Positions 5,981 through 35,398 of a DNA stretch of 35,398 nt are shown here, piece after piece; the first letter of the stretch is position 1; each line of letters opens with the position of its first letter. A program made the position numbers and the translations under genes. The stretch comes from Myxococcota bacterium (GTDB lineage: Bacteria > Myxococcota_C > UBA6777). Where the stretch lies: NCBI GenBank assembly GCA_023150835.1, contig JAKLKB010000060.1, positions 1 to 35,398 on the forward strand, given 5' to 3'. The notes under the pieces were generated by a model that ran no database searches, was not told where the DNA came from, and saw only the letters and a program-made list of their open reading frames with translations.

Positions 5981-6349
5981 GCTTGTTTGGTAATGTGGGA
6001 TTGCGGTGGAGGCTGTGGTACAGCCTGTTTGGTAATGTGGGATTGCGGTGGAAGCTGTGGGACAGCCTGTTTGGCAATGTGGGATTGCGGCGGAGGCTGT
6101 GAGACAGCTTGTTTGGTAATGTGGGATTGCGGTGGAGGCTGTGAGACAGCTTGTTTGGTAATGTGGGATTGCGGCGGAGGCTGTGAGACAGCTTGTTTGG
6201 TAATGTGGGATTGCGGCGGAGGCTGTGAGACAGCTTGTTTGGTAATGTGGGATTGCGGCGGAGGCTGTGAGACAGCCTGTTTGGTAATGTGGGGTTGCGG
6301 TGGAGGCTGTGAGACAGCTTGTTTGGTAATGTGGGATTGCGGTGGAGGC
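5981..6349. repeat. 42-bp tandem repeat array, about 8.8 copies
   Basis: Units start at 5981, 6023, 6065, 6107, 6149, 6191, 6233, 6275 and a partial one at 6317, all exactly 42 bases long, built around TTTGGTAATGTGGGATTGCG. They differ at a few positions only. Because 42 is a multiple of three the array is open in several frames. On the minus strand the most protein-like reading (5959-6465) is a 14-residue Pro/Gln-rich repeat PPPQSHITKQAVSQ. A second minus frame (5909-6481) begins with a hydrophobic FIACIAFICGW stretch, and a plus frame (5987-6592) reads as a Cys/Gly/Trp-rich repeat. None has a good ribosome site: both minus frames begin with TTG. I therefore annotate the repeat rather than a gene. 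It occupies most of the 720-base gap before hsdM. Confidence 0.9.
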
Positions 6350-6515: not shown

Positions 6516-8822
6516 ATGGATCAGGCAACGCACAACAAGATCGTATCTTTTCTTTGGGGGATCGCGGACGACGTTTTGCGCGACCTGTTTAGGCGCGGCA
6601 AGTATCCCGATGTGATCTTGCCGATGTGCGTCTTGCGCCGTTTGGATGCCGTACTCGAACCCACAAAACCCGCCGTTCTGGAAACCAAATCGCTCCTTGA
6701 TGAAGCAGGGATCTTGGATCAACACGCCGCACTTTGCGGGGCGTCTGGTCAGGCTTTTTACAACACCTCCCCATTTTGCCTTCGGGATCTCAAGTCGCGT
6801 GACACCACCCAGAAACTGCTTGCTGATTTTGAGGACTATCTCAACGGCTTTTCCAAAGATGTTCAAGATATCCTCGACAACTTCAAGTTTCGCAATCAGC
6901 TTGCGACACTCTCCAAAGCCGATGCGCTCGGAACCTTGGTCGAAAAGTTCCTCCATCCTGAGATCGATCTCAGTCCCGCAGGACTGGACAATCATGCGAT
7001 GGGAACGGTGTTTGAAGAGTTGGTGCGGCGCTTTAACGAAGAGAACAACGAAGAAGCGGGAGAACACTGGACGCCTCGTGATGCTGTGCGCTTGATGTCG
7101 AACCTCGTCTTTTTGCCCGTGGCCTCGCAGATCAAAGCGGGAACGTATCTGATCTATGATTGCGCTTGTGGGACAGGCGGGATGCTGACCGTGGCTGAAG
7201 AGACCTTGATGGAGATCGCCACCCAGCGCGGCCAACAAGTCAACGCACACCTGTACGGACAAGAGATCAATCCCGAAACTTACGCGATCTGCAAAGCCGA
7301 TATGTTGATCAAAGGAGAAGGAGAAAACGCCGAGAATATCAAAGGGGGTGCACAGTATTCGACGCTCTCCAACGATGCGTTCCCTGCGATGGCCTTTGAT
7401 TTCATGCTCGCCAACCCACCCTACGGCAAAAGCTGGAAAAAAGACCTTGAGCAGATGGGCGGCAAAGACGGGATGACGGACGCACGTTTTCGTGTGATGC
7501 ACAAAGGCGAGGAGCTTTTATTTCGGACGCGTTCAAGCGACGGGCAGATGCTTTTTCTCGCCAACATGGTCTCCAAGATGAACCACAAGAGCGACTTGGG
7601 ATCGCGCATCGCAGAAGTCCACAACGGAAGCTCGCTCTTTACGGGGGACGCTGGACAGGGAGAGAGCAATATCCGCCGTTGGATCATCGAAAACGATTGG
7701 TTGGAAGCTATCGTTGCGCTGCCGTTGAACCTCTTCTACAACACAGGCATCGCCACATACATCTGGGTTCTCTCGAATCGCAAGGCCGCACATCGTCAAG
7801 GCAAAGTCCAGCTTATCGATGCCTCTTCATGGTTTCAGCCTTTGCGAAAGAACCTCGGCAAGAAGAATTGCGAGCTTTCCCCTGCGGATATCCAACGCAT
7901 CTGCGATACCTTCCTTGCTTTTGAAGAAACCCCACAATCCAAGATCTTTCCGAACGAAGCCTTTGGATACCACAAGATCGTGGTCGAGCGGCCCTTGCGT
8001 CTGCACAGCCAGCTTTCCACTCCACGCATCCAAACGCTGCGCTTTGCTTCGGGGGATGAAGATCTGCGCTCCGTCTTGTTCGATGCTTTTGGCGATGCCT
8101 TGGCGGAGGACTTCGCTTCGGTCGCTGCGGAGGTGCAAGCGCGTCTGGATGCGTGGGGAACTGAAGACGTCGAAGACAGCGACGACGAAGAAGGCCCATC
8201 GAAAAAAGGCTTGCCGAAAAAGAAGAAAGACAAACTGCTCGATCCAAAGACATGGAAACGCGATGCGCGGCTTGTGGAGGTCGCAACGCTTTTGCGCGCC
8301 GAACTTGGCGGGGAGCTTTTCACGGATCACAACGTCTTTTGTGAGCGGGTGGACGACGCACTCAAGCGCCACGCCACGAAGTTGACCGCTGCGGATCGCA
8401 AAGCCTTGTTGCAAGCCGTCAGTTGGCGCGTTGAAGACGCTCCCCCTGTGATCGCCAAAAAGCACAAGCCAAGCAAAGTTAGCGCCGCTCCGTTGTTTGG
8501 ACTCTTTGAAGTCACGCTCCACGGGAATGTCTTTGTGGTCGAGTACGAAAGCGACAGCGAGATCCGCGATGCCGAGCAGATCCCCTTGCTCGAAGAGGGC
8601 GGTATCGAAGCCTTTTTCCGCCGCGAAGTCTTGCCTTACACCCCCGATGCGTGGATCAAACAAGACGCCACCAAGATCGGCTACGAGATCAGCTTCACAC
8701 GCCACTTTTATCAACCCAAGCCGCTTCGCTCCCTCGCCGAGATCCAAGCGGATATCCTTGCACTCCAAAAAGAAACCGCTGGCTTGTTGGATGGACTCTT
8801 TCAAGAGGAGATTGTGTCATGA
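6516..8822 (+). CDS. hsdM: Type I restriction-modification DNA methyltransferase subunit HsdM
   Basis: A 768-residue N6-adenine methyltransferase subunit, the modification core of a type I R-M complex with HsdS and HsdR. The N-terminal helical domain begins FLWGIADDVLRDLF. The AdoMet-binding motif DCACGTGG is at residues 215-222 and the catalytic NPPY at 300-303. HsdM-typical GEHWTPRDAVRLM lies between. After the core a charged linker (acidic then Lys-rich, about residues 548-575) leads to a C-terminal domain ending in PYTPDAW and GYEISFTRHFY, usual for the long HsdM subgroup. The chosen start ATG 6516 has GGGAG five bases upstream and gives the conserved N-terminus; upstream in-frame codons extend to 6429 without support. 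The stop overlaps the next start (ATGA). Confidence 0.96.
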   Translation: MDQATHNKIVSFLWGIADDVLRDLFRRGKYPDVILPMCVLRRLDAVLEPTKPAVLETKSLLDEAGILDQHAALCGASGQAFYNTSPFCLRDLKSRDTTQKLLADFEDYLNGFSKDVQDILDNFKFRNQLATLSKADALGTLVEKFLHPEIDLSPAGLDNHAMGTVFEELVRRFNEENNEEAGEHWTPRDAVRLMSNLVFLPVASQIKAGTYLIYDCACGTGGMLTVAEETLMEIATQRGQQVNAHLYGQEINPETYAICKADMLIKGEGENAENIKGGAQYSTLSNDAFPAMAFDFMLANPPYGKSWKKDLEQMGGKDGMTDARFRVMHKGEELLFRTRSSDGQMLFLANMVSKMNHKSDLGSRIAEVHNGSSLFTGDAGQGESNIRRWIIENDWLEAIVALPLNLFYNTGIATYIWVLSNRKAAHRQGKVQLIDASSWFQPLRKNLGKKNCELSPADIQRICDTFLAFEETPQSKIFPNEAFGYHKIVVERPLRLHSQLSTPRIQTLRFASGDEDLRSVLFDAFGDALAEDFASVAAEVQARLDAWGTEDVEDSDDEEGPSKKGLPKKKKDKLLDPKTWKRDARLVEVATLLRAELGGELFTDHNVFCERVDDALKRHATKLTAADRKALLQAVSWRVEDAPPVIAKKHKPSKVSAAPLFGLFEVTLHGNVFVVEYESDSEIRDAEQIPLLEEGGIEAFFRREVLPYTPDAWIKQDATKIGYEISFTRHFYQPKPLRSLAEIQADILALQKETAGLLDGLFQEEIVS

Positions 8823-9838
8823 GCTACGATGACTTGCTTGTATCCATCGCAGAAACCATCAAAGATTACAGGGAAGGCGAGATCGAGCCAAGAAATGAAC
8901 AATGCGTCGATCGGTGGGTTCAGCAGTTTGAGTCTGCGGTTCGTCGTCCCCTGTTGGTTGAGTTGGATTGGGTATTCAAGCAGACTTACCTTTCTCGCGC
9001 TGCGTTGGTAAGGGCTTTTACAGCATTGGTCAAAAAAAATTCGCCTGTGTATTGGAAAAACACACACTTCCTACAAATACAGCAAAACGGAAACAGCCAA
9101 AACGAGATGTTATCGCTTCTCAATGCTGCGATGTTGGATGTTCATGGCTTTGATCTCGGTGCTTGTGTCGGCGGTGAGCGGTATATGTACCTCGACGATA
9201 TCTCTTTTACAGGAAACCGCATCACAAATGATCTGATCCCTTGGATCAAGCAAGACGCTCCCAAAGAAACGGAGTTATGCATCGCGAGCGTGGTTCGACA
9301 TTCTTTTGGAGCCTACCAAGCCCATCAAAAATTAGAAGATGCAGTGAAGCAGTCAGGGAAATCGATCCACATCGATTGGCGATATTCCAAAGAGATGGAG
9401 AATCGCAAGACTTATCGTGACGATTCAGATGTGCTTTGGCCTTCGGTGCTTCCCGGTGATGTGTTTGTGCAAGAGTACCTCAGCGCGCAGAAATACCCCT
9501 TTGAGCCTCGCAATGCGGCTAGTCCCCCCCCCAGATACTTCTCTTCGGAAGAGGGACGCCAACTCTTGGAACGAGAGATGTTGCTTGCAGGCTTACAGAT
9601 CCGTTCCTTTTGCCAAAACCCCAAGGAGATCATGCGCCCTCTTGGTTATGGCCCTTTTGGGCTAGGGTTTGGCTCGACTTGGGTAACTTACCGTAATTGC
9701 CCAAACAACGCGCCTCTTGCGTTTTGGTGGGGTGATCCAGACTATCCGACAAACCATCCTTTTTCGCGTTGGTATCCTCTTTTTCCACGGAAAACATACG
9801 ACACGACGAACGAGGGCGTTTTTGATGACTTTGCTTAG
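8819..9838 (+). CDS. Phosphoribosyltransferase-like protein inside the R-M operon
   Basis: A 339-residue protein with the PRPP-binding signature of type I phosphoribosyltransferases: YLDDISFTGNRI at residues 125-136, matching the hydrophobic-strand/DD/xxTG loop, followed by a strand CIASVV and conserved-looking NGNSQNEML (about 90-98). The C-terminus NNAPLAFWWGDP...WYPLFPRK is characteristic, from memory, of the PRTase-like proteins seen in bacterial conflict or defence loci rather than of nucleotide-salvage enzymes. The base partner is unknown and the hood region does not match any salvage family I know. Its ATG overlaps the hsdM stop by 4 bases, and it overlaps the NADAR-hsdS start by 14 bases, so it is translationally coupled to both. 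The assignment to the PRTase fold is good; activity is inferred. Confidence 0.82.
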   Translation: MSYDDLLVSIAETIKDYREGEIEPRNEQCVDRWVQQFESAVRRPLLVELDWVFKQTYLSRAALVRAFTALVKKNSPVYWKNTHFLQIQQNGNSQNEMLSLLNAAMLDVHGFDLGACVGGERYMYLDDISFTGNRITNDLIPWIKQDAPKETELCIASVVRHSFGAYQAHQKLEDAVKQSGKSIHIDWRYSKEMENRKTYRDDSDVLWPSVLPGDVFVQEYLSAQKYPFEPRNAASPPPRYFSSEEGRQLLEREMLLAGLQIRSFCQNPKEIMRPLGYGPFGLGFGSTWVTYRNCPNNAPLAFWWGDPDYPTNHPFSRWYPLFPRKTYDTTNEGVFDDFA

Positions 9839-12122
9839 ACAACACCTTCCTGAACAAGCACGCACTTATGAGCGCCAGACCAGCGTTGTTTTTCTCAAGA
9901 CGAAAGAGGCGTTTGGTGGACTGTCCAACATGGCGGGCGGCTATCCTTTGCGCGTGAACCGCATCGTGCTTCTCACATCCGAAGCCCTCTATCAAGCCTG
10001 CCGCTTTCCCCATCTTCCCGATGTTCAGCGCATCATCCTTGCGGAAAAAAGCCCCATGACCGCAAAGATGCGTACGAAACCCTATCGTGCAGACTCTCGG
10101 CCTGATTGGGATCACGTTCGCGTCAAGATCATGCGTTGGTGTTTGCGTGTGAAACTTGCCCTTCACTGGGACAGCTTTGGCGAGCTGCTGCTCAGTACAG
10201 AAGAGCGCCCCATCGTCGAAGAATCCCGAAAAGATGATTTCTGGGGAGCCAAGCCCACGGATAGCCAGACGCTCGTTGGAATGAACGTGTTAGGCCGCTT
10301 GTTGATGGAACTCCGCGAAGCTATCAAAACAGAACCGAAAGAAGCGTTGTTGCGTGTCGAACCGCTCAACATCCAGCGTTTCTTGCTGCTCGATGCAGCC
10401 ATCGAAACGGTTGTCTCCCCAACTCTCTCGACGCCGCGCACATTGCACATCGTCCCCGCCTTCTTTCCCACGCCCTCCCCACCACCCGCACAGATCTCAC
10501 TCTTCGACACGAACCCTCCTTCACACGCCGAACGTGCAGACACCGTTATTCCTTCGCAGCTTCACACCGCAAATACAGCTTCTCCCCCTCACGTCTTGGA
10601 TACATCCATGAACACAACCACGACCGAACCTTCCACCGCGACCACCGAACCTTCCCTCCCACACCCACCACGCAACCCTCAACCTTATCCAGCCTACAAG
10701 GCTTCGGGTTCACCTTGGATCGGACAAGTGCCTGAACATTGGGAAGTGAAGCAAGCAAAGCACTTGGGTTCTTTTTTTAAAGGGGTAGGAGGAACGAAAG
10801 AAGACAATGTTCTTTTGGGGGTTCCATGTGTTCGCTACGGTGATCTTTACACAACACACCATAGCTTCATCCGCCGCAGCAAAGTATTTGTTCACGAGGG
10901 GCGTACGCACGATTACACGCCGATCCAGTACGGTGATGTTCTTTTTGCTGCGTCTGGCGAAACAATCGAAGAGATCGGTAAGTCCGCCGTAAATTTGATG
11001 CGAGAGTCCGCTGTTTGCGGCGGTGATACAATCATTTTGCGCCCAAATTCTTTTATTTATCCACCATTTTTAGGTTATGCAACAGATTGTCGGACATCCC
11101 AAACACAAAAGGCGATGATGGGCAGAGGAACCACAGTCAAACATATTTACCCAAGCGAACTCAAAAATCTCTTGATGCCGCTCCCTCCGTTGGAGGAGCA
11201 GGCCGCAATGGTGCGTTATCTCGATGATGCGTGTGGTCGTCTGGATCGAGCGATTCGAGCGAAGCGAAAGATGCTCGCGCTGCTTCACGAACAAAAGCAA
11301 GCCATCATTCACCGCGCTGTCACCCAAGGTCTCGACCCTCACGCACCCCGCAAACCGTCGGGCATCCCTTGGCTCGGTGAGATTCCGCAGCATTGGGAGG
11401 TGTTGCGGTTGGGGAGAGTAACGAATCTTATAACGGGGTATCCCTTCAAAAGCGAATGTTTCACGCAAAAGGAATCTGCGACGCGGCTTCTCAGAGGGAT
11501 CAATGTAACGCCAGCAGGATTGCGGTGGGACTCGACCGTTCGATGGGAACGAGCGTACAATGACGGTCTCGATGTGTTCTGCCTTGAAGTCGGTGACATC
11601 ATATTAGGGATGGATCGCCCAATCATCGCGTCTGGCGTTCGTGCTGCACAAGTTGAAGCGAAGGATGTCCCATCGCTTCTGCTTCAGCGAGTCGCCCGAA
11701 TTCGGCCAACTGAGAGACTGGACAACAGCTTCCTACTTATGTTGCTGAGAGGGAAACTCTTTGCTTATTACATCGCTCCAATTTTCACTGGCATAAGCGT
11801 GCCGCATCTTAGTCCAGAGCAAATTCTGAATTTCAAAATCGTGCTCCCGCCAAAGTCTGAGCAATCGGAAATCGTGCGATACGTTGAGGCGGAAACCGTA
11901 TCCCTAAATACCGCCATTGCCCGCATCGAAAGAGAAATCGCTTTACTGCAAGAGTACCGCACGCGGTTGGTGTCGGATGTGGTGACGGGGAAGTGGGATG
12001 TGCGAGAGGCGGCCAAGCATGTGAGGGAGATTTCGTATGGGGAGGATGCGGTCGATGGGGAGGATGTGGAGGGTGATGGGTTGGTTGAAGATGCGGACGA
12101 GGCGGAGGATGCGGAGGGATGA
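9825..12122 (+). CDS. hsdS: NADAR domain fused to type I specificity subunit HsdS
   Basis: A 765-residue fusion, versus 380-450 for an ordinary HsdS. Residues ~20-168 are a NADAR (YbiA/DUF1768) domain: LSNM at 33-36, SEALYQACRF around Glu53, RPDWDHVR with Trp95, EESRKDDFWG with Asp138, and GMNVLGRLLMELR at 152-164. These keep the Glu/Trp/Asp set of this N-glycosidase family, whose members act on ribosylated or ADP-ribosylated bases. Residues ~200-315 are a Pro/Thr/Ser-rich linker. Residues ~316-740 are HsdS with two target-recognition half repeats, each opening with SGxPWxGxxPxHWEV and closing with a helical LPPxxEQ conserved region. The end is an acidic tail. Start ATG 9825 (GAGGGCG upstream) overlaps the PRTase gene; upstream in-frame codons would extend the frame to 9717. 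Confidence 0.92.
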   Translation: MTLLRQHLPEQARTYERQTSVVFLKTKEAFGGLSNMAGGYPLRVNRIVLLTSEALYQACRFPHLPDVQRIILAEKSPMTAKMRTKPYRADSRPDWDHVRVKIMRWCLRVKLALHWDSFGELLLSTEERPIVEESRKDDFWGAKPTDSQTLVGMNVLGRLLMELREAIKTEPKEALLRVEPLNIQRFLLLDAAIETVVSPTLSTPRTLHIVPAFFPTPSPPPAQISLFDTNPPSHAERADTVIPSQLHTANTASPPHVLDTSMNTTTTEPSTATTEPSLPHPPRNPQPYPAYKASGSPWIGQVPEHWEVKQAKHLGSFFKGVGGTKEDNVLLGVPCVRYGDLYTTHHSFIRRSKVFVHEGRTHDYTPIQYGDVLFAASGETIEEIGKSAVNLMRESAVCGGDTIILRPNSFIYPPFLGYATDCRTSQTQKAMMGRGTTVKHIYPSELKNLLMPLPPLEEQAAMVRYLDDACGRLDRAIRAKRKMLALLHEQKQAIIHRAVTQGLDPHAPRKPSGIPWLGEIPQHWEVLRLGRVTNLITGYPFKSECFTQKESATRLLRGINVTPAGLRWDSTVRWERAYNDGLDVFCLEVGDIILGMDRPIIASGVRAAQVEAKDVPSLLLQRVARIRPTERLDNSFLLMLLRGKLFAYYIAPIFTGISVPHLSPEQILNFKIVLPPKSEQSEIVRYVEAETVSLNTAIARIEREIALLQEYRTRLVSDVVTGKWDVREAAKHVREISYGEDAVDGEDVEGDGLVEDADEAEDAEG

Positions 12123-12170: not shown

Positions 12171-13202
12171 TTGGCGAAGCAGAAGAAGCAGAGCAAAGGC
12201 GCGGAAGAGAGTACGCCGTTTGATGAATTGATGAAGCATCTCGCGGATCGGTATGGGCGTGAGTTGGTGACGTATTTGGGGGGATTGTCGGAGGTGGAGC
12301 GTTGTGAGTCTGTCGGCGGAGAAGTGGAGATCACGCATCGTTTGACAGATCGGGTATTTCGGGTGAAAGCAAAGTTATCCCCCGAAGGAGAACAGGAAGA
12401 GTTTTTGGTGCATTTGGAGTTTGAGTCGTCTTACAACAAGTGGATGGGACAACGCTTGGGGACATACGGTTGGCATCTTTGCGAGAGAGAGAACTTGCCA
12501 GTGATGCACCTCGTTTGGTATGTGAGCGAAGAAACTCCGTCGTACTGGCCTTTGGGAGAATGGCAAAGAGAACGGGAAGAGGAGATGTGGATCGGGGGTC
12601 GGTTGGTGGGGTTGGTGTGTTGGCGGGAGATCTGGTTTTCAGGGAAGTACAAGGCTGAAGATTTTGTGAAAGAAGCACCAGCGTACTTGCTGCCGTTTGC
12701 GGCGTTGATGGAAGGGGCAGAGCGGCCCTTTATCAAGAGACTGGCCGAGGCGATTATGAAGAGCGATGTTTCCGAACAGCACAAACAAGACTTGTTGTTG
12801 ATGGCAAGTTTTTTGTTTGCGCGTTTTTTTGGAGTCCAGATCGTGCAAGAGGAGATCAAGATGAGCTTGCTTGAACCGAATCCATTGGTTGAGTACTTCA
12901 TGCAAAGAGGCCAAGAGAAAGGAAGACAGGAAGGAAGGCAAGAGATTATCGAAAAGATGTTGGGGCAGGGCCTTCCTCCGCAAGTGGTGGCCAATTTCAC
13001 TGGCTTATCGGTCGAAGAGGTGGAAGAGATCAAAGAAGCGCGGCGAGAAAAAACGCAGAGCAAGCAGCGTGTTGTGTTGCGGATGTTGGAGCGTGGCTTT
13101 TCTGTGGAAGAGATCGTTGATGTGACAGAGATGAAAAGAGAAGAGATCGAGCGTATTCAAGAGCAAACCAGCAGCAAGGGGATGCCCGAAGGGGAGGGGT
13201 GA
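12171..13202 (+). CDS. Rpn/PD-(D/E)XK family nuclease-like protein
   Basis: A 343-residue protein of the recombination-promoting nuclease (RpnA-like)/PDDEXK transposase-related group. The nuclease core is seen in PFDELMKHLADRYG (about 16-29), LTDRVFRVKA with the candidate metal Asp, VHLEFESS with the Glu pair (about 80-87), and QRLGTYGWHL. The C-terminal ~90 residues carry two helix-turn-helix-like repeats (GLPPQVVANFTGLSVEEV and RGFSVEEIVDVTEMKREEI), a common tail of this family. The start is TTG 12171, chosen because GGAGGAAGG lies immediately upstream and the protein would otherwise lose its N-terminal helix. It follows hsdS by 48 bases and precedes hsdR by 108, so it is co-transcribed; it is not a standard R-M component and may be an accessory nuclease or a passenger. 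Confidence 0.78.
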   Translation: MAKQKKQSKGAEESTPFDELMKHLADRYGRELVTYLGGLSEVERCESVGGEVEITHRLTDRVFRVKAKLSPEGEQEEFLVHLEFESSYNKWMGQRLGTYGWHLCERENLPVMHLVWYVSEETPSYWPLGEWQREREEEMWIGGRLVGLVCWREIWFSGKYKAEDFVKEAPAYLLPFAALMEGAERPFIKRLAEAIMKSDVSEQHKQDLLLMASFLFARFFGVQIVQEEIKMSLLEPNPLVEYFMQRGQEKGRQEGRQEIIEKMLGQGLPPQVVANFTGLSVEEVEEIKEARREKTQSKQRVVLRMLERGFSVEEIVDVTEMKREEIERIQEQTSSKGMPEGEG

Positions 13203-13310
13203 GGGGCAGCACGAAAAAGGAGCGTGTGACACGGAGTGTCGGAAGAAGGTGTTAGAGAGGAAAAGGCAGGGACGAAGGTCATCCATCACGAGGAAAGAGG
13301 AGGAAGTCTG

Positions 13311-16300
13311 ATGCGTGTCACAGATATCTCGGAGAAGGGTTTGGAGTTGTTGATCGTGGGGGAGATGACAGGGACGGATGGGGTGACACCACAAGCGGAG
13401 ACTCTTTCGGAAAACGCGGTGGGGCCGAGCAGTACTTATGCAGCGAACAAAAAGGGCTGGTTGTTGGGGAGGGCCAAGGATTATGATCGGGGCCACGCGT
13501 TGGATCTTGTGCAGCTATGTGCCTTTTTGCACGCGACGCAGCCCACGCTGTTTGAGAAAGTCCCCTTGCACGGGGAGCTTGATCCCAAGGATAGTCAGAC
13601 TGCGAAGTTTCTTGCGCGGCTATCATCGGAGATCGGAAAGGTGGGGGTGGTGGATGTCTTGCGGAAGGGGATAGAACACGGGCCGCACCATGTGTGGCTC
13701 TTTTATGGAACGCCCTCGGAAGGGAACACCACCGCAGAGATATTGCACACACAAAACCGTTTTAGCGTGACACGGCAGTTGCGTTACAGCCACGACGAGA
13801 CACGGAACGCGTTGGATCTGGTGTTGTTTGTGAACGGCCTTCCCATCGCGACGTTGGAACTCAAGAACAGCCTGACCAAGCAAACGGTGGCGGATGCAGT
13901 CGAGCAGTACAAGACAGATCGAGATAAGCGAGAAAAGCTGTTTGGTTTGGGTCGTTGTGTGGTGCATTTTGCGGTAGATGATGCAGAAGTGCGGATGTGT
14001 ACGGAGCTACAGGGGAAAGCGTCGTGGTTTTTGCCCTTTAACAAGGGTTGGGAGGATGGCGCGGGGAATCCGCCGAATCCAGCGGGACTCAAGACGGATT
14101 ATTTGTGGAAGGATATCTTTGCGCCGAAGAGTTTGATACATCTGCTCGAACATTTTGCACAGATGGTGGAGATCAAAGATCCTGAAACGAACAAGAAGAA
14201 GAAGTATCAGCTTTTTCCGCGCTATCACCAACTGGATGTGGTGCGATGTTGCCTTGCGGATGTGCAACGCCGTGGCGTGGGGGGGCGTTATCTGATCCAG
14301 CACTCGGCGGGGAGTGGGAAATCGAACTCGATAGCTTGGTTGGCGCATCAACTGGTGGGGCTTCAACAAGAGGGACAGTCGGTCTTTGATTCGGTGGTGG
14401 TGTTGACGGATCGACGGGTGTTGGACAACCAACTGGCGCAGACGATTCGACAATTGATGCAGATCAGGGCAACGGTGGGACACGCGCAAGAGGCAGGTGA
14501 TCTCAAGCGATTTTTGCAGGAAGGCAAAAAGATCATCATCAGTACAATTCAAAAGTTTCCCTTCATTTTGGAGGAACTCAGCGGGGAGGACAAAGGGCGG
14601 AAGTTTGCGTTGATCATCGACGAAGCCCATTCGAGCCAAGGCGGGAAAAGTTCAACGGCGGTGAATACGGCCTTGTCGGAGGGGTTGTCTGTGGAGGAAG
14701 AGGAAGATGGGGAGGATCTGATCAACCGCGCACTCGAACAACGGAGTGCATCGAGGAAGATGTTGAGCAACGCGAGTTACTTTGCGTTCACGGCGACGCC
14801 CAAGAACAAGACGTTGGAGATGTTTGGAGAGGGGCTTCCAGCCGATGCAGAAGGCAGAGTGAGATATCGGCCATTCCATCATTATTCGATGAAACAGGCG
14901 ATCCAAGAGGGTTTTATCTTGGATGTGCTCAAGAGTTTCACGCCGATCCAGAGCTATTACAGGCTGACAAAGACCATCGAGGGAGATCCCGAATTTGACG
15001 TGCGGAGGGCGCAAAAAAAGCTGCGCCGTTATGTCGAAAGCCACGAGTATGCGATCCGTTTGAAGGCGGAGATCATGGTGGATCACTTTCATGAGCGGGT
15101 GAGCGGGTTAAAAAAGATCGGTGGAAAAGCGCGAGCGATGGTGGTTTGCAATGGTATTGCGCGAGCCATCGAGTATTTTCGGGCATTTCAGGCGTATTTG
15201 ACGGAGCGAAAAAGCTCCTACAAAGCCATCGTCGCCTTTTCGGGGGAGTTTTTACATCAAGGGATCAACGAAACGGAAGCGTCGTTGAATGGCTTTGCGA
15301 GTGATGCCATCGCGAGCAAGATCAAAGAAGATCCGTACCGTTTTTTGATCTGTGCAGACAAATTCCAAACGGGGTATGACGAACCGTTGTTGCATACGAT
15401 GTACGTAGACAAGCCGTTGTCGGGGATCAAAGCGGTGCAAACGCTGTCTCGTCTGAATCGCGCCCACCCAGAAAAGTACGATGTCTTCGTGCTGGACTTT
15501 TACAACGACGCCACAGCGATAGCGGATGCTTTTTCAACGTACTACCGAACAACCGTCTTGAGCGAAGGAACCGATCCGAATCGGTTGAACGATCTGAAGC
15601 GTGATCTGGATCGGTTGGGTGTGTACGCTGCGGAGGAAGTTGAGCGGTTGGTGGGTCTGTTTCTTTCGGGTGCATCGCGGGAAAAGATCGATCCGCTGTT
15701 GGACATCTGGGTGTCAGAGTATCAAGGCTTGGACGAAGAAGAACAGATCGAATTCAAGGGGAAAGCCAAAGCCTTTGTGCGTGTGTACAGTTTTTTGGCG
15801 TCGGTATCATCGTATCCTCACGCAGGATGGGAGGGTTTGTCGATTGTGTTGAATTTGCTGATTCCCAAGCTACCCGCGCCAAAAGAGGAAGATCGGGCCA
15901 AAGGCATCCTTGAGACGGTGGATATGGAGAGTTATCGTGCAGAAAAGCAGGCCGTACAAAGTCTGCGGCTTGTTGATGCAGATGCGGAGATCGCGCCTGT
16001 TCCTGTGGAGAACGGTGGGGGGCGGGGAGAAGCAGAGATGGATCGTTTGAGCAGGATCCTTGATGCGTTCAATGCGCATTTTGGGGCATTGTTCACCGAC
16101 GCGGATCGGGTGATACGACGTATTCGCGAAGATATAGCGCCCAAAGTCGCCGCAGATACAGCCTACCAAAACGCCAAAAACAACACACCTGCGACTGCGC
16201 GAATCGAACACGACAAAGTGTTGGATAGAGTGATGCTTTCCTTGTTGAAGGATGACACCGAAGTCTATAAACAATTCCAAAACAACGACCAGTTCAAGCG

Positions 16301-16370
16301 AGAGGTGCGGGATCTGGTGTATCGGTTGACGAGCGGAGGCTTGGCTGAAGGCAAGAAAGATGTGGTTTGA
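13311..16370 (+). CDS. hsdR: Type I restriction endonuclease subunit HsdR
   Basis: A 1019-residue motor/nuclease subunit that translocates unmodified DNA and cuts it. The N-terminal PD-(D/E)XK nuclease shows Asp169 in LDLVLFVNG and Glu183/Lys185 in ELK. The SF2 translocase has Walker A GSGKS at residues 334-338, DEAH at 437-440, the TATP motif in FAFTATPKN and the arginine-finger region QTLSRLNRAHP. The C-terminal helical domain follows to the end. Start ATG 13311 is preferred because AGGAGGAAG precedes it; GTG 13236 would add 25 residues without a good ribosome site. It is the last gene of the operon. A hairpin at 16590-16611 may end the transcript. No frameshift or missing motif, so the system looks intact. 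Confidence 0.96.
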   Translation: MRVTDISEKGLELLIVGEMTGTDGVTPQAETLSENAVGPSSTYAANKKGWLLGRAKDYDRGHALDLVQLCAFLHATQPTLFEKVPLHGELDPKDSQTAKFLARLSSEIGKVGVVDVLRKGIEHGPHHVWLFYGTPSEGNTTAEILHTQNRFSVTRQLRYSHDETRNALDLVLFVNGLPIATLELKNSLTKQTVADAVEQYKTDRDKREKLFGLGRCVVHFAVDDAEVRMCTELQGKASWFLPFNKGWEDGAGNPPNPAGLKTDYLWKDIFAPKSLIHLLEHFAQMVEIKDPETNKKKKYQLFPRYHQLDVVRCCLADVQRRGVGGRYLIQHSAGSGKSNSIAWLAHQLVGLQQEGQSVFDSVVVLTDRRVLDNQLAQTIRQLMQIRATVGHAQEAGDLKRFLQEGKKIIISTIQKFPFILEELSGEDKGRKFALIIDEAHSSQGGKSSTAVNTALSEGLSVEEEEDGEDLINRALEQRSASRKMLSNASYFAFTATPKNKTLEMFGEGLPADAEGRVRYRPFHHYSMKQAIQEGFILDVLKSFTPIQSYYRLTKTIEGDPEFDVRRAQKKLRRYVESHEYAIRLKAEIMVDHFHERVSGLKKIGGKARAMVVCNGIARAIEYFRAFQAYLTERKSSYKAIVAFSGEFLHQGINETEASLNGFASDAIASKIKEDPYRFLICADKFQTGYDEPLLHTMYVDKPLSGIKAVQTLSRLNRAHPEKYDVFVLDFYNDATAIADAFSTYYRTTVLSEGTDPNRLNDLKRDLDRLGVYAAEEVERLVGLFLSGASREKIDPLLDIWVSEYQGLDEEEQIEFKGKAKAFVRVYSFLASVSSYPHAGWEGLSIVLNLLIPKLPAPKEEDRAKGILETVDMESYRAEKQAVQSLRLVDADAEIAPVPVENGGGRGEAEMDRLSRILDAFNAHFGALFTDADRVIRRIREDIAPKVAADTAYQNAKNNTPATARIEHDKVLDRVMLSLLKDDTEVYKQFQNNDQFKREVRDLVYRLTSGGLAEGKKDVV

Positions 16371-16681: not shown

Positions 16682-19600
16682 TTAGCGGAGAGAGAGAGCG
16701 CGAGGGCCGAAGAGGTTTTCGATGGCTTCTTCGAAGGATTCGGAGGGATCGACGCGGATGTGTTCGGGGAGTCGGATGAGCGTTTCGGAGCGTTGGGGGA
16801 TGGTGAGGTGAAGGAGGGCGAGGCAGGATCCTTGGTGTTGGTGGAAGATTTGCAGCATTTGGCGAGCGGCGGCTTCGGAGAGATCGGAGGAAGTGAGGTG
16901 GAGATGGACTTCGCGGGCTTTTTCGTTGCGGGCGGCGATGAGGGAGCGTATTTCGGCACCTTTCATGCGGACTTGGTTTTCGTCGGATTCGGTTTCACCG
17001 CGAACAAGGACGGGTTCGTCGCTGTCAAGGAGAGAGGCGACTTCGCTGTAGAGGCGTGGGAAGACGGAGACTTCGATGGTGCCGGTCATATCTTCGACCA
17101 TGATAAAGGCCATGGGTTCGCCTTTTTTGGTGACCATGCCGCGTTTGGAGGTGATGATGCCAGCGATAGTCACTTCGCTACCACTCGGATAATCGGAGAG
17201 ATCGGCGATATTTGCGGTGACGAAGCGTTTGATGTCTTTTTCGAGGCGTTGGAGGGGATGGCCGGAGATGTAAAAGCCGAGGATCTCTTTTTCTTGTTGG
17301 AGGCGTTCTTTTTCGGGCCAGTCTTTGAGGAGGGGGATCTTGGGTTTGGGTGGAGGGGCGGAGCTTGCGAGGAGATCGAACATCGAGATCTGGCTGCTGC
17401 CTTTGTCTTTTTGGAGGCTTTGGCCGTATTGGACGGCGTCGTCCATGACAGCGACGAGAGAGGCGCGGTTGATGGGTTCGATGCCATCGAAGGCACCGGA
17501 CTTGATCAGGGCTTCGATCACGCGCTTGTTGACGGGTTTGAGGTCGACGCGCTCGCAAAAGTCGTAGATGCCGGTAAAGGGGCCGCTTTTGCGGGCTTGG
17601 ATGATCGAGTCGATGGCGTTTTCGCCGATGCCTTTGATGCCAGCGAGGCCAAAGCGGATCTTGTCACCGATGGCGACAAAGCCTCCGTGGGATTCGTTGA
17701 CGTTGGGAGGAAGGACTTGTACTTTGTGTTGGCGGCAATCGTTGAGGTAGAGCAGAAGTTTGTCGGAGTTTCCGGCATCTGCGGTGAGAAGCGCAGCCAT
17801 GTATTCATGTCGGTAGTGGGCTTTTAACCACGCGGTTTGGTACGCAACCAGCCCGTACGCCGCCGAATGTGAGTTGTGTACGATCAAGCCGTTCGCAACG
17901 AAGTTATGATCGTGTTCAACGGTCAGATCGTAGGTTCTTTGCGCGCCTTTTGGTGTAATCGATACAACCGTATCCCAGTAGATCTCGGAATCTCCGAGAT
18001 ATTGAAGGTGGGTAGAAGAGAAAAAGGTAGCGAGTTTTTGGATCGTTGTGCGGCAGAAGCCTTTCTTTTTTTGCGTTGTTGCACCATAAAAATCTCGGAC
18101 ACAGACGCCTGATCTGTTTTCCACTTCCTTCCACGTCAGCCCTGCTTTTTGACGAAGGTCTTCGATCGATTCTCGGATATCAGAAGGGATTGTATCTTTG
18201 CTGCTTTCTTCCTCAACAAGGCGATCAAGGTAATTTTTTAGCTGCTCGACCTGTTCTTCTCGGCCAACGCAGTGGGGGGCAACTGTTTCGACAAACCGCC
18301 GTTTGGTTTGTGCTCCGATAAGCGAAACGGTGAATCCACCTTTTTTTTGCTCTCGGTAGGCAAAGGTTTTTGAGGCGATTTTGCTAGGCAAGCCGAGGCG
18401 CAAAAGCAGTAACTGCACGTCTTTTGCTAAACGTTGGGATGAAGTCGCGTAGAAAGGAGCGTCATGTTCACGCCTCCCGAAAATGAATCCGTCTCCGGCC
18501 CATAACCGGCCCAAAAAGAGAGCGATATCATCGTCTCGCAGGGTAAAGATTTCGGATGGGACAAATTTTTCTGTGGCGGTACAACCGATGAGTCCGAGCT
18601 GCTGCGCCCAATAGAAAGCGCCTGAACGCTTTGGCTGTGTTTGTTTCTGTGCAAGATTTCCGAGAGTGGGTTGGTTTTGCGATGTACAACGAAATGCCCG
18701 CCCGGTGTTTGCTGCCACTTCCATTCGGACAGTATTCGGTCTTGTGTAGATGTGGGCGACGGTATTAGGGAATTTTTGGATAGCTTGGGCAAAGTCATCA
18801 ATTTGTATGGGGTTGTTGTTGTAGAAATAAAGCGTGGTGGGGTGGCATGTATTGCCCTCTGCGATCAAGCCTGCAAGGGCGATAAGTTGGTGTTCTGCCC
18901 AAGAGTTCGATGTGTGCGTTGGTATACATCGGGGGGCAGCGATACGTGTTCCGACTTGCAAGTTTTCGAGCAGGGTCCAGCCTTGGAGGGTGCGAAAGGG
19001 ATGGTTTGCTGTGGCGGTGATGGTTTTGCCCAAGGCCGTTTTGAGTTCAAACGTGGGTTGGATACCGTTGTCGATGACGTCAGAGACCGAGCGGGTGTGG
19101 ATTTTCCAGTCGTTTCCGAGAGCATGAATTGAAAAGGGGCGTGGTGTGGCGTGGAGTTCGGCGAGGGTGGTGCGTTCGCCAGTCTGTGCGTCGAGGAGCT
19201 CGGTATCGCCAGCCAAGCAACGATTGAAACCATAGGCGGCGAACTTTTCGACCTTTCCGAAGAGGTCTTCGGCTTTTGCGGTGTCGAAGCCGTTTTTTTG
19301 GGCACCTTCGACAAAGCGGCTGCGTTGCTTTTCCATTTCGAGGGCGTCTTTTTTACCCATAGCGCGGCGCAAGAGGTCGGCTTCACCGAGGGAATAGCTG
19401 GCGAGTACGTTGGCGATTTGCATGACTTGTTCTTGGTAGATGCAGACGCCGTAGGTGCTACCGAGGACAGGTTGGAGGACATCGAAGATATAGTCGATCT
19501 TTTCTTGTCCGTGTTTTCGGAGGATGAAAGAGTCGGCCATACCGCTTTGGAGGGGTCCGGGTCGGTAGAGGGCGACGAGGGCGATGACGTCTTCAAAACA

Positions 19601-21574
19601 GGAGGGTCGGAGTCGGGTGATCAGTTGGCGCATTCCGGAGGATTCGAGTTGGAAGACGCCCAAGGTATCGGCGTGGCACAAAAGGTCGAATACAGCGGGG
19701 TCTTCGATGTTGATGGTTTCCATATCGACGGTGACGCCTCGGTTTTGTTTGATCAAGTCGAGGCAATTTTTGATCAGGGTAAGGTTCTTGAGTCCGAGGA
19801 AGTCGAACTTGATCAGGCCGACGCTTTCGACCCCTTTCATATCGAACTGCGTGACGACTTCGCCTTTTGCGCCTTTGTAGAGGGGGAGGTGTTCGACGAG
19901 AGGGCGTCCATCGGAGATGACGACGCCAGCGGCGTGGACGGAGGCGTGTCGGTTGAGACCTTCGAGTCGGCGGGCGATATCGAAAAGTTTGGCGAGGCGG
20001 GGATTTTCTTTGATTTCTTCGCGCAGACGGGGTTCTTGTTGGAGGGCGTCGTCAAGGGTGATATCGAGGACGTTGGGGATGAGTTTGGCGAGGCGGTTGG
20101 TTTCGTTGAAAGAGATGTCCATAGCGCGGCCAACGTCTTTTAAGACGGCCTTGGCTTTGAGTTTTCCGAAGGTGATGATCTGGGAGACGGCGGGTCCGCC
20201 CGGGACGGCGTATCGTTCACGGACGTATTGGATGACTTCGTCGCGTCGGGATTCACAGAAGTCGACGTCGATATCGGGCATGGAGATGCGTTCTGGGTTG
20301 AGGAAACGCTCGAAGAGCAGGCTGTGTTTGATCGGATCGATGTCGGTGATGCGGGTGCAAAAAGCGACGAGGGAGCCCGCAGCCGAGCCACGTCCCGGAC
20401 CGACGGGGATATCGTGATCTTTGGCCCAGTTGATAAAGTCAGAGACGATCAAGAAGTAGTCGGCGAAGCCCATTTTTTGGATCATCAGGAGTTCGTATTC
20501 GAGGCGATCGAAGTATTCTTTGCGCAGATCGTCGTGTTTTTCGGGTGGGTTTTGGGCGAGAACGATCTGGAGTCGGGCCTCGAGTCCTTTGAGGCTATCG
20601 GCGCGCAAGGCGTCCATATTGGAGACGCCGTCGCCTTTGTCGAGTTTGGGGAAGTAGTAATCCTTGTTTTTGAGGTTGACATCGCACATCTCGGCGATCT
20701 TGAGGGTGTTTTCGCAGGCATCGGGCCATTCTTTGAAGAGTTCCCACATCTCGTCGGGGCTTTTGAGATAGAACTCTTGGACATCGTGTTTGAGGCGATT
20801 GGGATCGCTGATGGTTTTGCCTGTTTGGATGGCGAGGAGGGCGTCTTGGGCTTCGGCGTCTTCGCGGGCCATGTAGTGGACGTCGTTGGTGGCGACCAGT
20901 CCGAGTCCAAGCTCACGAGCGATCTGGACGAGCTTGGGATTGACGGCCATCTGTTCTGCGATGCCGTTCATTTGGAGTTCGATGTAATAGTAGCCGTTGA
21001 AGATCTGGGCGTATTCTTTGGCGGCGGCGAGGGCTTCTTCGTCGCGTCCTTTGAGCAGAAGTTGGCAGACTTCACCCGCGAGACAAGAAGAAGTGCCGAT
21101 CAAGCCTTCGGCGTGTTGGCGGAGGATCTCTTTATCGATGCGAGGGCGGTAATGGAAGCCTTCAAAAAAGCCCGCAGTCACGAGCTTCGAGAGGTTGCGG
21201 TAGCCTGTGTTGTTTCGGGCGAGGATGAGTTGGTGGTAGTAGATGCGATCGGTGAATCGGCCTTTTTCTTTGCTAAGGCGGGACACAGGAGCCAGATAGG
21301 TTTCGCAGCCCACGATCGGTTTGATGCCCGCGCTGGTGGCCTTTTTGAAAAAGTCGATGGCACCGAACATATTGCCGTGATCGGTGATCGCGACAGCGTC
21401 CATGCCGAGGGATTGGATCTTGTTGAGTAGGCCGTATTCTTTTTTGGGATTTTTGAGATCGCCGATGAGTTGGGCGCCATCAAGCAAGCTGTAAGTGGTG
21501 TGAAGGTGCAGGTGGACAAATTTCTTTTTGATTTGTCCGATATCGCTGCATGTTTCGGTGATGATCGAAGCCAT
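16682..21574 (-). CDS. dnaE: DNA polymerase III alpha subunit with an in-frame intein
   Basis: The replicative polymerase subunit, 1630 residues as a precursor and about 1181 after removal of a 449-residue intein, close to the usual ~1160. The PHP domain opens with HLHLHTTYS (His21/23/25), the palm carries PDIDVDF near residue 431, and an OB-fold (VTIAGIITSKRG, about residue 1465 of the precursor) sits near the C-terminus. The start ATG 21574 has GAGGAA upstream and gives the normal N-terminus; the frame continues open to 21667 without a better site. The intein interrupts AAYGFNR/SHSAAYG in the polymerase core, so activity requires splicing. The gene is the last of a minus-strand cluster with the kinase and HKD genes. 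Confidence 0.97.
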   Translation of the reverse strand: MASIITETCSDIGQIKKKFVHLHLHTTYSLLDGAQLIGDLKNPKKEYGLLNKIQSLGMDAVAITDHGNMFGAIDFFKKATSAGIKPIVGCETYLAPVSRLSKEKGRFTDRIYYHQLILARNNTGYRNLSKLVTAGFFEGFHYRPRIDKEILRQHAEGLIGTSSCLAGEVCQLLLKGRDEEALAAAKEYAQIFNGYYYIELQMNGIAEQMAVNPKLVQIARELGLGLVATNDVHYMAREDAEAQDALLAIQTGKTISDPNRLKHDVQEFYLKSPDEMWELFKEWPDACENTLKIAEMCDVNLKNKDYYFPKLDKGDGVSNMDALRADSLKGLEARLQIVLAQNPPEKHDDLRKEYFDRLEYELLMIQKMGFADYFLIVSDFINWAKDHDIPVGPGRGSAAGSLVAFCTRITDIDPIKHSLLFERFLNPERISMPDIDVDFCESRRDEVIQYVRERYAVPGGPAVSQIITFGKLKAKAVLKDVGRAMDISFNETNRLAKLIPNVLDITLDDALQQEPRLREEIKENPRLAKLFDIARRLEGLNRHASVHAAGVVISDGRPLVEHLPLYKGAKGEVVTQFDMKGVESVGLIKFDFLGLKNLTLIKNCLDLIKQNRGVTVDMETINIEDPAVFDLLCHADTLGVFQLESSGMRQLITRLRPSCFEDVIALVALYRPGPLQSGMADSFILRKHGQEKIDYIFDVLQPVLGSTYGVCIYQEQVMQIANVLASYSLGEADLLRRAMGKKDALEMEKQRSRFVEGAQKNGFDTAKAEDLFGKVEKFAAYGFNRCLAGDTELLDAQTGERTTLAELHATPRPFSIHALGNDWKIHTRSVSDVIDNGIQPTFELKTALGKTITATANHPFRTLQGWTLLENLQVGTRIAAPRCIPTHTSNSWAEHQLIALAGLIAEGNTCHPTTLYFYNNNPIQIDDFAQAIQKFPNTVAHIYTRPNTVRMEVAANTGRAFRCTSQNQPTLGNLAQKQTQPKRSGAFYWAQQLGLIGCTATEKFVPSEIFTLRDDDIALFLGRLWAGDGFIFGRREHDAPFYATSSQRLAKDVQLLLLRLGLPSKIASKTFAYREQKKGGFTVSLIGAQTKRRFVETVAPHCVGREEQVEQLKNYLDRLVEEESSKDTIPSDIRESIEDLRQKAGLTWKEVENRSGVCVRDFYGATTQKKKGFCRTTIQKLATFFSSTHLQYLGDSEIYWDTVVSITPKGAQRTYDLTVEHDHNFVANGLIVHNSHSAAYGLVAYQTAWLKAHYRHEYMAALLTADAGNSDKLLLYLNDCRQHKVQVLPPNVNESHGGFVAIGDKIRFGLAGIKGIGENAIDSIIQARKSGPFTGIYDFCERVDLKPVNKRVIEALIKSGAFDGIEPINRASLVAVMDDAVQYGQSLQKDKGSSQISMFDLLASSAPPPKPKIPLLKDWPEKERLQQEKEILGFYISGHPLQRLEKDIKRFVTANIADLSDYPSGSEVTIAGIITSKRGMVTKKGEPMAFIMVEDMTGTIEVSVFPRLYSEVASLLDSDEPVLVRGETESDENQVRMKGAEIRSLIAARNEKAREVHLHLTSSDLSEAAARQMLQIFHQHQGSCLALLHLTIPQRSETLIRLPEHIRVDPSESFEEAIENLFGPRALSLR
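17873..19219 (-). mobile_element. LAGLIDADG intein within dnaE
   Basis: A 449-residue intein, precursor residues 786-1234. It starts with Cys (CLAGDTEL, block A), has TANHPF (block B, TxxH), two LAGLIDADG-type motifs LAGLIAEG and LGRLWAGDG for a homing endonuclease, and ends VHN before Ser+1 of the extein. Between the second endonuclease motif and the last splicing block is a helix-turn-helix-like stretch (DLRQKAGLTWKEVENRSG). All splicing residues are present, so it should be active. The insertion point is four residues downstream of the site used by the cyanobacterial split DnaE intein (before CFN). Codon use appears less GC-biased than in the flanking exteins, consistent with transfer. Confidence 0.95.
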
Positions 21575-21624
21575 GAGATTCCTCGCAAAGTCAAGAAGGT
21601 GTTGGATCGGGGGTTTTAAGGGGA

Positions 21625-22335
21625 TTAGGAACGAGAGGAGGTGGTGGGGCGGGCATAGAGGGCCCAAAGCCGATCGAACTCTTGTTGAAAAGCGCGGATC
21701 ATCGAGGGATTGCGTGTGATGATCAGGTTTTCGTGGTTGTTGGTGCTTGCGGAGCGCGTCCAGTTGAAGCTGCCGTTGAGGAGGATGGATTGGTCGAGGA
21801 TGGCGAATTTGTGGTGCATGTGATCGCTGTTTTGATCGACAGCGGTGGGGATTCCGGTTTGGTTGAGGTTGGTCACATCGGAGCCGAGGTCGGCGGCTTT
21901 GTCGTTGTCGGAGAGGATGCGGACGGAGAGGCCGTTTTGGTGGGCTTTTTCGAGGATGCGGGAGAGGCGGTCATCCGTGATGGTGTAGACGCAGACATCG
22001 AGGGTCTTTCGGGCGCTTTGGAGGACTTCAAGAAGGCGGGCGTAGGAACGTGCATCAGGGAAGAACAAGGCTTCGTCGGCGTCGGTGGTTTGGGTGGGGG
22101 ACTGTTGGAGAAGGATCTTGGTGAGGGAGGCGATCCATTCGAGGGCAAGGCGCTCTTGGGGATGGCGGAGGGCTTGTTGTGCGCAAGCAAAGATCTCGTG
22201 GCGCAGGAGTTGGAGTTGTTCGGTGGAGGGTTGGGCGTCTTCAAGGAGTTGCTTGAAGACGGTGGCTTCGTTGCGGGAGAGTTGTTGATCGTCGAAACTT
22301 TGTTGGAGAAAGGTGCGGAATTGTTGGATATCCAT
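21625..22335 (-). CDS. Single-HKD phospholipase-D-like protein
   Basis: A 236-residue protein. Residues 1-75 are an all-helical N-terminal region of unknown role. Residues ~88-230 form a PLD-like domain with one HKD motif, H174-x-K176-x4-D181, followed by GSFNWT. Such single-HKD proteins dimerise to form the active site and include nucleases (Nuc/Zucchini type) as well as phospholipases; the order SARKTLDVCVYTITDDRLS is typical of that subgroup. No signal peptide, so it is probably cytoplasmic and more likely nuclease-like. The gene is 50 bases upstream of dnaE and 116 bases downstream of the kinase on the same strand, so the three may be co-transcribed. A link to replication or repair is inferred from position only. 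Confidence 0.82.
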   Translation of the reverse strand: MDIQQFRTFLQQSFDDQQLSRNEATVFKQLLEDAQPSTEQLQLLRHEIFACAQQALRHPQERLALEWIASLTKILLQQSPTQTTDADEALFFPDARSYARLLEVLQSARKTLDVCVYTITDDRLSRILEKAHQNGLSVRILSDNDKAADLGSDVTNLNQTGIPTAVDQNSDHMHHKFAILDQSILLNGSFNWTRSASTNNHENLIITRNPSMIRAFQQEFDRLWALYARPTTSSRS

Positions 22336-35265: not shown

Positions 35266-35398
35266 CACGGAAAGCACGGAAAACACGGAAAGTACGGAAA
35301 GTACGGAAAGTACGGAAAGTACGGAAAGTACGGAAAGTACGGAAAGTACGGAAAGTACGGAAAGTACGGAAAGTACGGAAAGTACGGAAAGTACGGAA
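35266..35398. repeat. 9-bp tandem array at the window edge
   Basis: Fourteen full units and part of a fifteenth: CACGGAAAG, CACGGAAAA, CACGGAAAG, then identical TACGGAAAG units to the last base. The array runs off the window, so its length is unknown. The stretch before it (35229-35250) has a CATCACGCAGAGGAT string similar to one in reverse at 280-292. No gene is seen in 35113-35398. Confidence 0.95.

Follow-up and report, generated by a model that had tools for sequence, protein, structure and literature searches.

A NADAR–HsdS fusion places a DS-32-like phosphoribosyltransferase–NADAR pair inside a type I restriction-modification operon

The stretch of DNA analyzed here (35,398 nucleotides, contig JAKLKB010000060.1 of the Myxococcota assembly GCA_023150835.1; hereafter the window) carries a type I restriction-modification (R-M) operon in which hsdS, the specificity gene, is fused in frame to a sequence encoding a NADAR domain. 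The genes are ordered hsdM, a phosphoribosyltransferase (PRTase)-like gene, NADAR::hsdS, an Rpn-family nuclease-like open reading frame (ORF) and hsdR (Table 1). Judged from the genes, the R-M set is complete in one operon: hsdM, an hsdS with two target recognition domains (TRDs) and an hsdR with a superfamily 2 motor. A preliminary description of this DNA had recognized the fusion but overlooked the PRTase gene, which overlaps both of its neighbors—starting within the hsdM stop codon (ATGA) and ending 14 nt into the fusion gene.

The fusion gene is a single unbroken frame of 765 amino acids. Pfam places NADAR (PF08719) at residues 23-167 (E 2e-22, 80.6 bits, cut-off 35.1), in agreement with the residues 20-168 proposed from the sequence by eye, and finds Methylase_S twice; PADLOC type I specificity profiles cover residues 286-730 (E 3e-95). 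The AlphaFold2 model, for which the window protein was combined with 42 fused relatives (43 sequences in all), features a confident NADAR fold at about residues 10-200, disorder at 203-281 and an HsdS part displaying both long conserved helices, 456-501 and 677-720—with the TRDs modeled less well than the rest. Foldseek matched this model to HsdS (1yf2, 6.5e-18), YbiA (2b3w, 1e-7) and a NADAR with ADP-ribose (8bau, 6e-6). The preliminary description of a NADAR and a full two-TRD HsdS in one frame is thus borne out by the ORF, both profile sets, the model and its structural matches. Its linker of ~115 residues holds as the distance from the end of the NADAR match to the start of HsdS, whereas the disordered linker comprises about 80 residues.

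Two trivial origins of this arrangement were considered. A frameshift or read-through artefact is ruled out, since the same NADAR::HsdS fusion occurs at 51 fetched loci, mostly from independent genomes; a hidden frameshift between the domains, against which the preliminary description had warned, was looked for and is absent from the uninterrupted frame. Separate translation of HsdS from an internal start is ruled out in the window, where the linker contains no in-frame start with a Shine-Dalgarno sequence. Scattered candidates exist in 10 of the 51 fused loci and are not conserved, which makes a free HsdS unlikely.

Table 1. Features of the operon in the window
Feature	Position	Strand	Basis or remark
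hsdM, type I methyltransferase subunit	6516..8822	+	HsdM_N + N6_Mtase (Pfam); PADLOC MTase_I E 3e-255
PRTase-CE / DS32_1 phosphoribosyltransferase-like	8819..9838	+	PF24390 E 4e-46; NF053875 354.8 bits, cut-off 250
NADAR::HsdS fusion gene	9825..12122	+	One frame; Pfam and PADLOC profiles, AlphaFold2, Foldseek
NADAR domain (DS32_2 family), residues 23-167	9891..10325	+	PF08719; NF053876 279.1 bits, cut-off 240; conserved active site
Disordered linker, residues 203-281	10431..10667	+	pLDDT (predicted local distance difference test) <50; internal start with a Shine-Dalgarno sequence absent
QISLF peptide, residues 223-227, beta-clamp-binding-like motif	10491..10505	+	Follows NADAR, within the disordered linker
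HsdS part, two TRDs and two long helices, residues 286-730	10680..12014	+	PADLOC Specificity_I E 3e-95; Foldseek 1yf2_A 6.5e-18
Rpn-family nuclease-like ORF between hsdS and hsdR	12171..13202	+	TIGR01784 E 5e-10, below cut-off
hsdR, type I restriction subunit	13236..16370	+	HSDR_N, SWI2_SNF2, T1R_D3-like (Pfam); TIGR00348 E 6.5e-63, below cut-off

Conservation was examined in both halves of the protein. Twelve positions are invariant across 121 NADARs (E53, Q57, R60, K81, R92, W95, K110, E132, W140, G141, G152 and N154), and D137 is Asp in 116 of them—the other five sequences being the sole exception to catalytic-residue conservation in the fusion lineages. This residue, and not Asp138 (75/121) as first proposed, is the conserved acid; the further near-invariant positions of the active site are E53, R60, K81, W95, E132 and W140. 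In the NADAR of P. nicotianae, ADP-ribose is contacted by E43, K50, E125, D130 and W133 (PMC11543638), and by our own mapping the conserved residues of the window protein appear to correspond to these contacts in spacing, with Arg60 replacing Lys50. Such conservation across the fusion lineages suggests that an active enzyme has been kept. The HsdS part, in turn, behaves as a live, swappable specificity subunit: between proteins whose NADARs are 97-99% identical, HsdS identity drops to as little as 33-44%, and variation peaks in the region of the second TRD. With a near-invariant active site on one side and exchanged TRDs on the other, both halves look functional. A NADAR domain with intact catalytic residues, joined to a full HsdS, also agrees with the earlier proposal of a ribosyl-base hydrolase tethered to a DNA-recognition complex.

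The gene upstream of the fusion gives this arrangement a context. The PRTase retains a PRPP (phosphoribosyl pyrophosphate)-type motif, YxDD--FxG, which is kept in 112 relatives. Its AlphaFold2 model (pLDDT 93) matched uracil and xanthine-guanine phosphoribosyltransferases (UPRT/XGPRT) best in Foldseek, though weakly (E 1e-3) and over part of the fold, and a sequence search against solved structures returned nothing meaningful. Directly downstream, the NADAR domain scores 279.1 bits against NF053876 (DS32_2), for which the cut-off is 240. We take the NCBIfam families DS32_1 and DS32_2 to represent DS-32, a validated anti-phage pair from the DefensePredictor screen (PMC13092281); the part of that source available to us names NADAR and PRTase domains and gives no mechanism for DS-32. 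Because both proteins exceed the DS-32 cut-offs and the PRTase partner is present, we read the fusion as DS-32 wired into R-M—that is, the operon is predicted to be a type I system that contains DS-32, with the NADAR half of the pair built into HsdS. A YbiA-like housekeeping enzyme is ruled out by a score below the cut-off of TIGR02464, the YbiA riboflavin-intermediate N-glycosidase family (68.8 vs 73.7 bits). Reading the domain as free-standing and YbiA-like was correct insofar as it is a true NADAR, but it fits the DS-32 cut-off and not the riboflavin-glycosidase one. The two other NADARs of this genome (L001, L002) are 30-33% identical to the fused one.

To gain a broader view of its distribution, 84,980 species genomes were scanned with a NADAR alignment made without the other HsdS fusions, and the best 80 of 228 relatives were kept; a viral collection was queried separately with the PRTase, yielding 33 viral contigs. 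NADAR and HsdS share one ORF of about 670-830 amino acids in 46 of the best 80 genomic loci—not a population frequency, since these loci are the closest relatives of the window NADAR—and in 5/33 viral contigs. The fusions span six or more phyla and include named isolates (Nitrococcus mobilis, Poseidonocella pacifica, Parvibaculum sedimenti, Marinobacterium litorale and Swaminathania salitolerans) as well as metagenome-assembled genomes of Planctomycetota, Thermodesulfobacteriota, Acidobacteriota, Chloroflexota and Melainabacteria. A PRTase lies upstream of the fusion in 49/49 loci whose contig reaches that far, L027 and L048 beginning at a contig edge, and a NADAR adjoins each of the 33 PRTases on viral contigs, which were retrieved by a search blind to NADAR. 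The PRTase and NADAR module is sporadic: among 144 further genomes sampled as relatives of the window genome, DS32_1 occurs in a single one, itself a distant relative. Standalone PRTase and NADAR pairs were found in plasmid-collection records, viral contigs and E. coli genomes; by megablast, 62 of 5426 E. coli genomes carry the pair, and in 19 of these the match reaches ≥99% identity across most of the query. In a quick tree the HsdS-fused label clusters, a pattern compatible with single or multiple origins of the fusion. The possibility raised at the outset, that the fusion is common and already characterized, was half right: it is common among the best 80 NADAR loci, but no characterization was found. 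Literature searches likewise returned no description of a NADAR–HsdS fusion, as the preliminary description had held for type I systems of such layout, although the embedded-defence preprint of Payne et al. 2024 may list it.

Two other groups of relatives surfaced in these searches. Two contigs of the viral collection, L137 (485 kb) and L156 (177 kb), code for DS-32-like NADARs (49-55% identity) that lack a neighboring PRTase and could be phage-borne antidotes. L007, an 882-kb Vibrio parahaemolyticus replicon that also bears nrdAB and NAD genes, encodes a NADAR with 42% identity next to a Dam methyltransferase; the tail of this NADAR ends in QLGFF.

The linker of the fusion contains a short peptide, QISLF, putatively clamp-binding as a consensus match in a disordered region and resembling the beta-sliding-clamp motif, of which the consensus is Q-L-x-L-F and the usual position C-terminal (PMC4549789). 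With a pattern picked after inspecting the sequences, [QE]x[SDAGTN][LM]F, a peptide within residues 190-245 was detected in 44 of 51 fusions; shuffled linkers would give 0.5%. A related pattern stands at the end of 32 of 51 unfused NADARs and of 9 of 14 NADARs that bear other extensions, a DUF1156 part among them; the controls gave 1.6% of background ORFs, 0/114 PRTases and 1/51 fused HsdS ends. After clustering at about 80%, the strict motif is kept in 11/17 fusion clusters and 9/21 unfused clusters, and it is therefore recurrent rather than universal. NADARs without a PRTase (L001, L002, L137 and L156) lack the motif, which makes docking to the PRTase an alternative role.

In relatives of the same R-M family, the hsdM-hsdS slot occupied by the module accommodates other cargo. 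Among 369 gammaproteobacterial genomes, 17 loci with an HsdM of about 58% identity or more were assessable: three carry the PRTase with NADAR::HsdS, 14 do not, and these relatives often hold a YhcG/DUF1016 nuclease or Abi_2 in the hsdM-hsdS or hsdS-hsdR gap (Pfam). The Rpn-like ORF of the window is likewise cargo outside the conserved core, its slot being filled by other genes in relatives. Alphaproteobacterial fused loci have an extra GmrSD_N gene preceding the PRTase (Pfam), as in L015, where this type IV restriction-like gene lies between hsdM and the PRTase (L015:7106-8899). Three loci of the same type I family (L203, L204 and L208) have what seems, by eye, to be a DarG-like macrodomain gene downstream of hsdS. 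HsdS is not the only fusion partner: in four loci with an upstream PRTase, the fused partner of NADAR is a DUF1156 DNA-methyltransferase-like protein from a DUF499/helicase defence system, assigned by Pfam in L011 and L043 and by the same sequence signature in L033 and L053. In L083 and L084 the NADAR and DUF1156 proteins are encoded by adjoining separate genes, again with the PRTase upstream, and cyanobacterial NADARs bear a C-terminal extension without a Pfam match.

Elsewhere in the window, a tandem array of 42-bp units (5981-6349; 8.8 copies, 95% matches) lies just 5' of hsdM; the hsdM ORF can be extended upstream to 6429, the start MDQATHN at 6516 being likelier. A gene for DNA polymerase III alpha (DnaE; 16682-21667, minus strand) contains an intein with a LAGLIDADG domain (Pfam Intein_splicing, LAGLIDADG_3), and a 9-bp array (ACGGAAAGT, 14.7 copies; 35267-35398) reaches the window end.

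Several known systems resemble this operon in part. DS-32 itself (PMC13092281; NF053875/NF053876) shares both proteins above curated cut-offs and their order, PRTase then NADAR; elsewhere, for example in the E. coli relatives, it is a free two-gene system, whereas here a type I operon encloses it and its NADAR is joined to HsdS. DarTG1 (PMC11543638) also pairs a NADAR with a glycosyl-transferring enzyme, and the active-site residues are alike save for Arg60 in place of Lys. However, the partner here is a PRPP-type PRTase rather than an NAD-dependent ADP-ribosyltransferase (no DarT1-type enzyme was found among the operon genes scanned with Pfam and NCBIfam), and the NADAR is fused to HsdS. The RptR-RMS-DarTG2 island of enteropathogenic E. 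coli, with DarTG2 between hsdS and hsdR, likewise embeds a nucleic-acid-ribosylating toxin-antitoxin pair in a type I R-M operon, but as separate genes, with neither fusion nor PRTase (PMC12255303). The PADLOC profile PRTase_III-A matches the window PRTase distantly (E 2e-8), indicating remote homology to the effectors of type III-A retrons; unlike there, no reverse transcriptase gene was found among the operon genes scanned. A further parallel comes from the PrrC gene, which lies between hsdM and hsdS. EcoprrI-PrrC (PMC2610378) is a host-harming module in a type I operon, held off by the R-M complex, as we propose by analogy here. Its cargo differs in that ours is a PRTase and a NADAR, partly fused covalently to HsdS; no PrrC anticodon nuclease was found among the operon genes scanned with Pfam, PADLOC and NCBIfam, so that the cargo position alone is shared.

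What, then, might the embedded pair do? Being type I-like, the PRTase would belong to enzymes that form N-glycosidic bonds using PRPP, and NADARs break ribosyl N-glycosidic bonds; that two such enzymes are constantly encoded together suggests a writer and its eraser, or a toxin and its antidote. Drawing on the analogies above, we tentatively favor, at a probability of about 0.42, a scenario in which a type I operon absorbed DS-32, with the PRTase as effector, the NADAR as antidote and the R-M complex as guard. The PRTase would be harmful by transferring phosphoribosyl from PRPP onto a base, most likely one in DNA, and the NADAR would hydrolyze the resulting N-glycosidic bond—a PRPP counterpart of DarT1 and its NADAR antitoxin, which removes ribosyl groups from guanine (PMC11543638). 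PRTases have been described as effectors of type III retrons (PMC12548924). An intact, DNA-bound R-M complex would keep the PRTase harmless, because the antidote is carried on every HsdS; a phage that blocks, displaces or destroys this complex would leave the antidote lost or misplaced, and the PRTase would stop the infected cell. This release would parallel that of PrrC when EcoprrI is inhibited, PrrC being kept silent by the type I enzyme to which it is linked until an anti-restriction peptide sets it free (PMC2610378). The QxSLF peptide may also position the antidote at the sliding clamp, the place at which adducts would be most harmful, and this putative motif, together with the fusion or adjacency to DUF1156 methyltransferases, points to DNA as the workplace. 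The functions suggested earlier for the fusion—erasing a modified base, sensing phage nucleotide chemistry or licensing cutting—are possible; they leave the PRTase unused, and this partner points more to a guarded toxin and antidote. A fuller version, in which reversible PRPP-dependent phosphoribosylation of nucleic-acid bases is a defence, the eraser is built into HsdS and docked at the clamp, and a single R-M complex thus restricts DNA and carries the antidote, we consider improbable as a whole.

Several points weigh against this guard model. The assignment of toxin and antidote draws on analogy, and the roles could be reversed, with the NADAR as effector and the PRTase as accessory. The module also occurs without R-M, so a guard role would be limited to the fused form. 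Across 43 complete fused loci, Mantel correlations of NADAR distances were 0.81 with HsdM, 0.82 with HsdR and 0.62 with the PRTase—a weaker co-variation with the latter than might be expected of a tight toxin-antitoxin pair. The clamp motif, a consensus match absent or degenerate in a minority of fusions, could dock the PRTase instead. The evidence is strongest for the fusion itself, its anatomy, conservation, recurrence and constant pairing with a PRTase having been directly observed, and weakest for which enzyme is harmful.

Two serious rivals to the guard model deserve consideration. The pair might instead act on soluble nucleotides or PRPP, by consumption or by making and breaking a signal, with the R-M system as sensor; PRTases of known fold act on free bases, the weak fold matches were to UPRT/XGPRT, and YbiA uses small riboflavin intermediates as substrates. 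Iyer et al. proposed that phage NADARs target soluble ADP-ribose derivatives (PMC9503650), in keeping with such a metabolic or signaling effector. A soluble substrate, however, gives no reason for tethering to HsdS or DUF1156 proteins or for a clamp-like peptide, and the PRTase fold match is partial, leaving this alternative unlikely. Slightly less probable still is sequence-directed base editing, in which HsdS would bring the NADAR to target sites in invading DNA for removal of a ribosylated or hypermodified base, or in which the PRTase would add a base group that the NADAR strips from methylated self DNA, so that phage DNA is exposed to cutting or suffers abasic damage. The separate fusions to HsdS (46 of the best 80 genomic loci) and to DUF1156 methyltransferases, the clamp-like motif and the action of the DarTG1 NADAR on ADP-ribosylated DNA (PMC11543638) are consistent with it. 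Yet the standalone pair lacks a DNA-recognition subunit and DS-32 is nonetheless reported as defensive, HsdS in an M2S complex is occupied by HsdM without an obvious second catalytic slot, and a disordered linker of ~80 residues would put the NADAR at no defined base. Finally, an inert NADAR remnant, decayed after stop-codon loss on an otherwise ordinary HsdS, would agree with the complete HsdS part and with the fact that most relatives of this R-M family work without a NADAR, but is very hard to reconcile with a near-invariant active site over 121 proteins, constant PRTase pairing and dozens of fused loci in several phyla.

That dozens of unrelated bacteria share this arrangement points to the incorporation of an already known anti-phage gene pair into the restriction machinery. 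Fusions to HsdS and to DNA methyltransferases, together with the clamp-like peptide, place the likely site of NADAR action on DNA, at R-M complexes and perhaps at replication forks, and these natural fusions make the DS-32 mechanism directly testable. If the type I specificity subunit carries a catalytic domain in many bacteria, some genes annotated as HsdS would encode defence proteins with two functions, which present tools classify as ordinary R-M.

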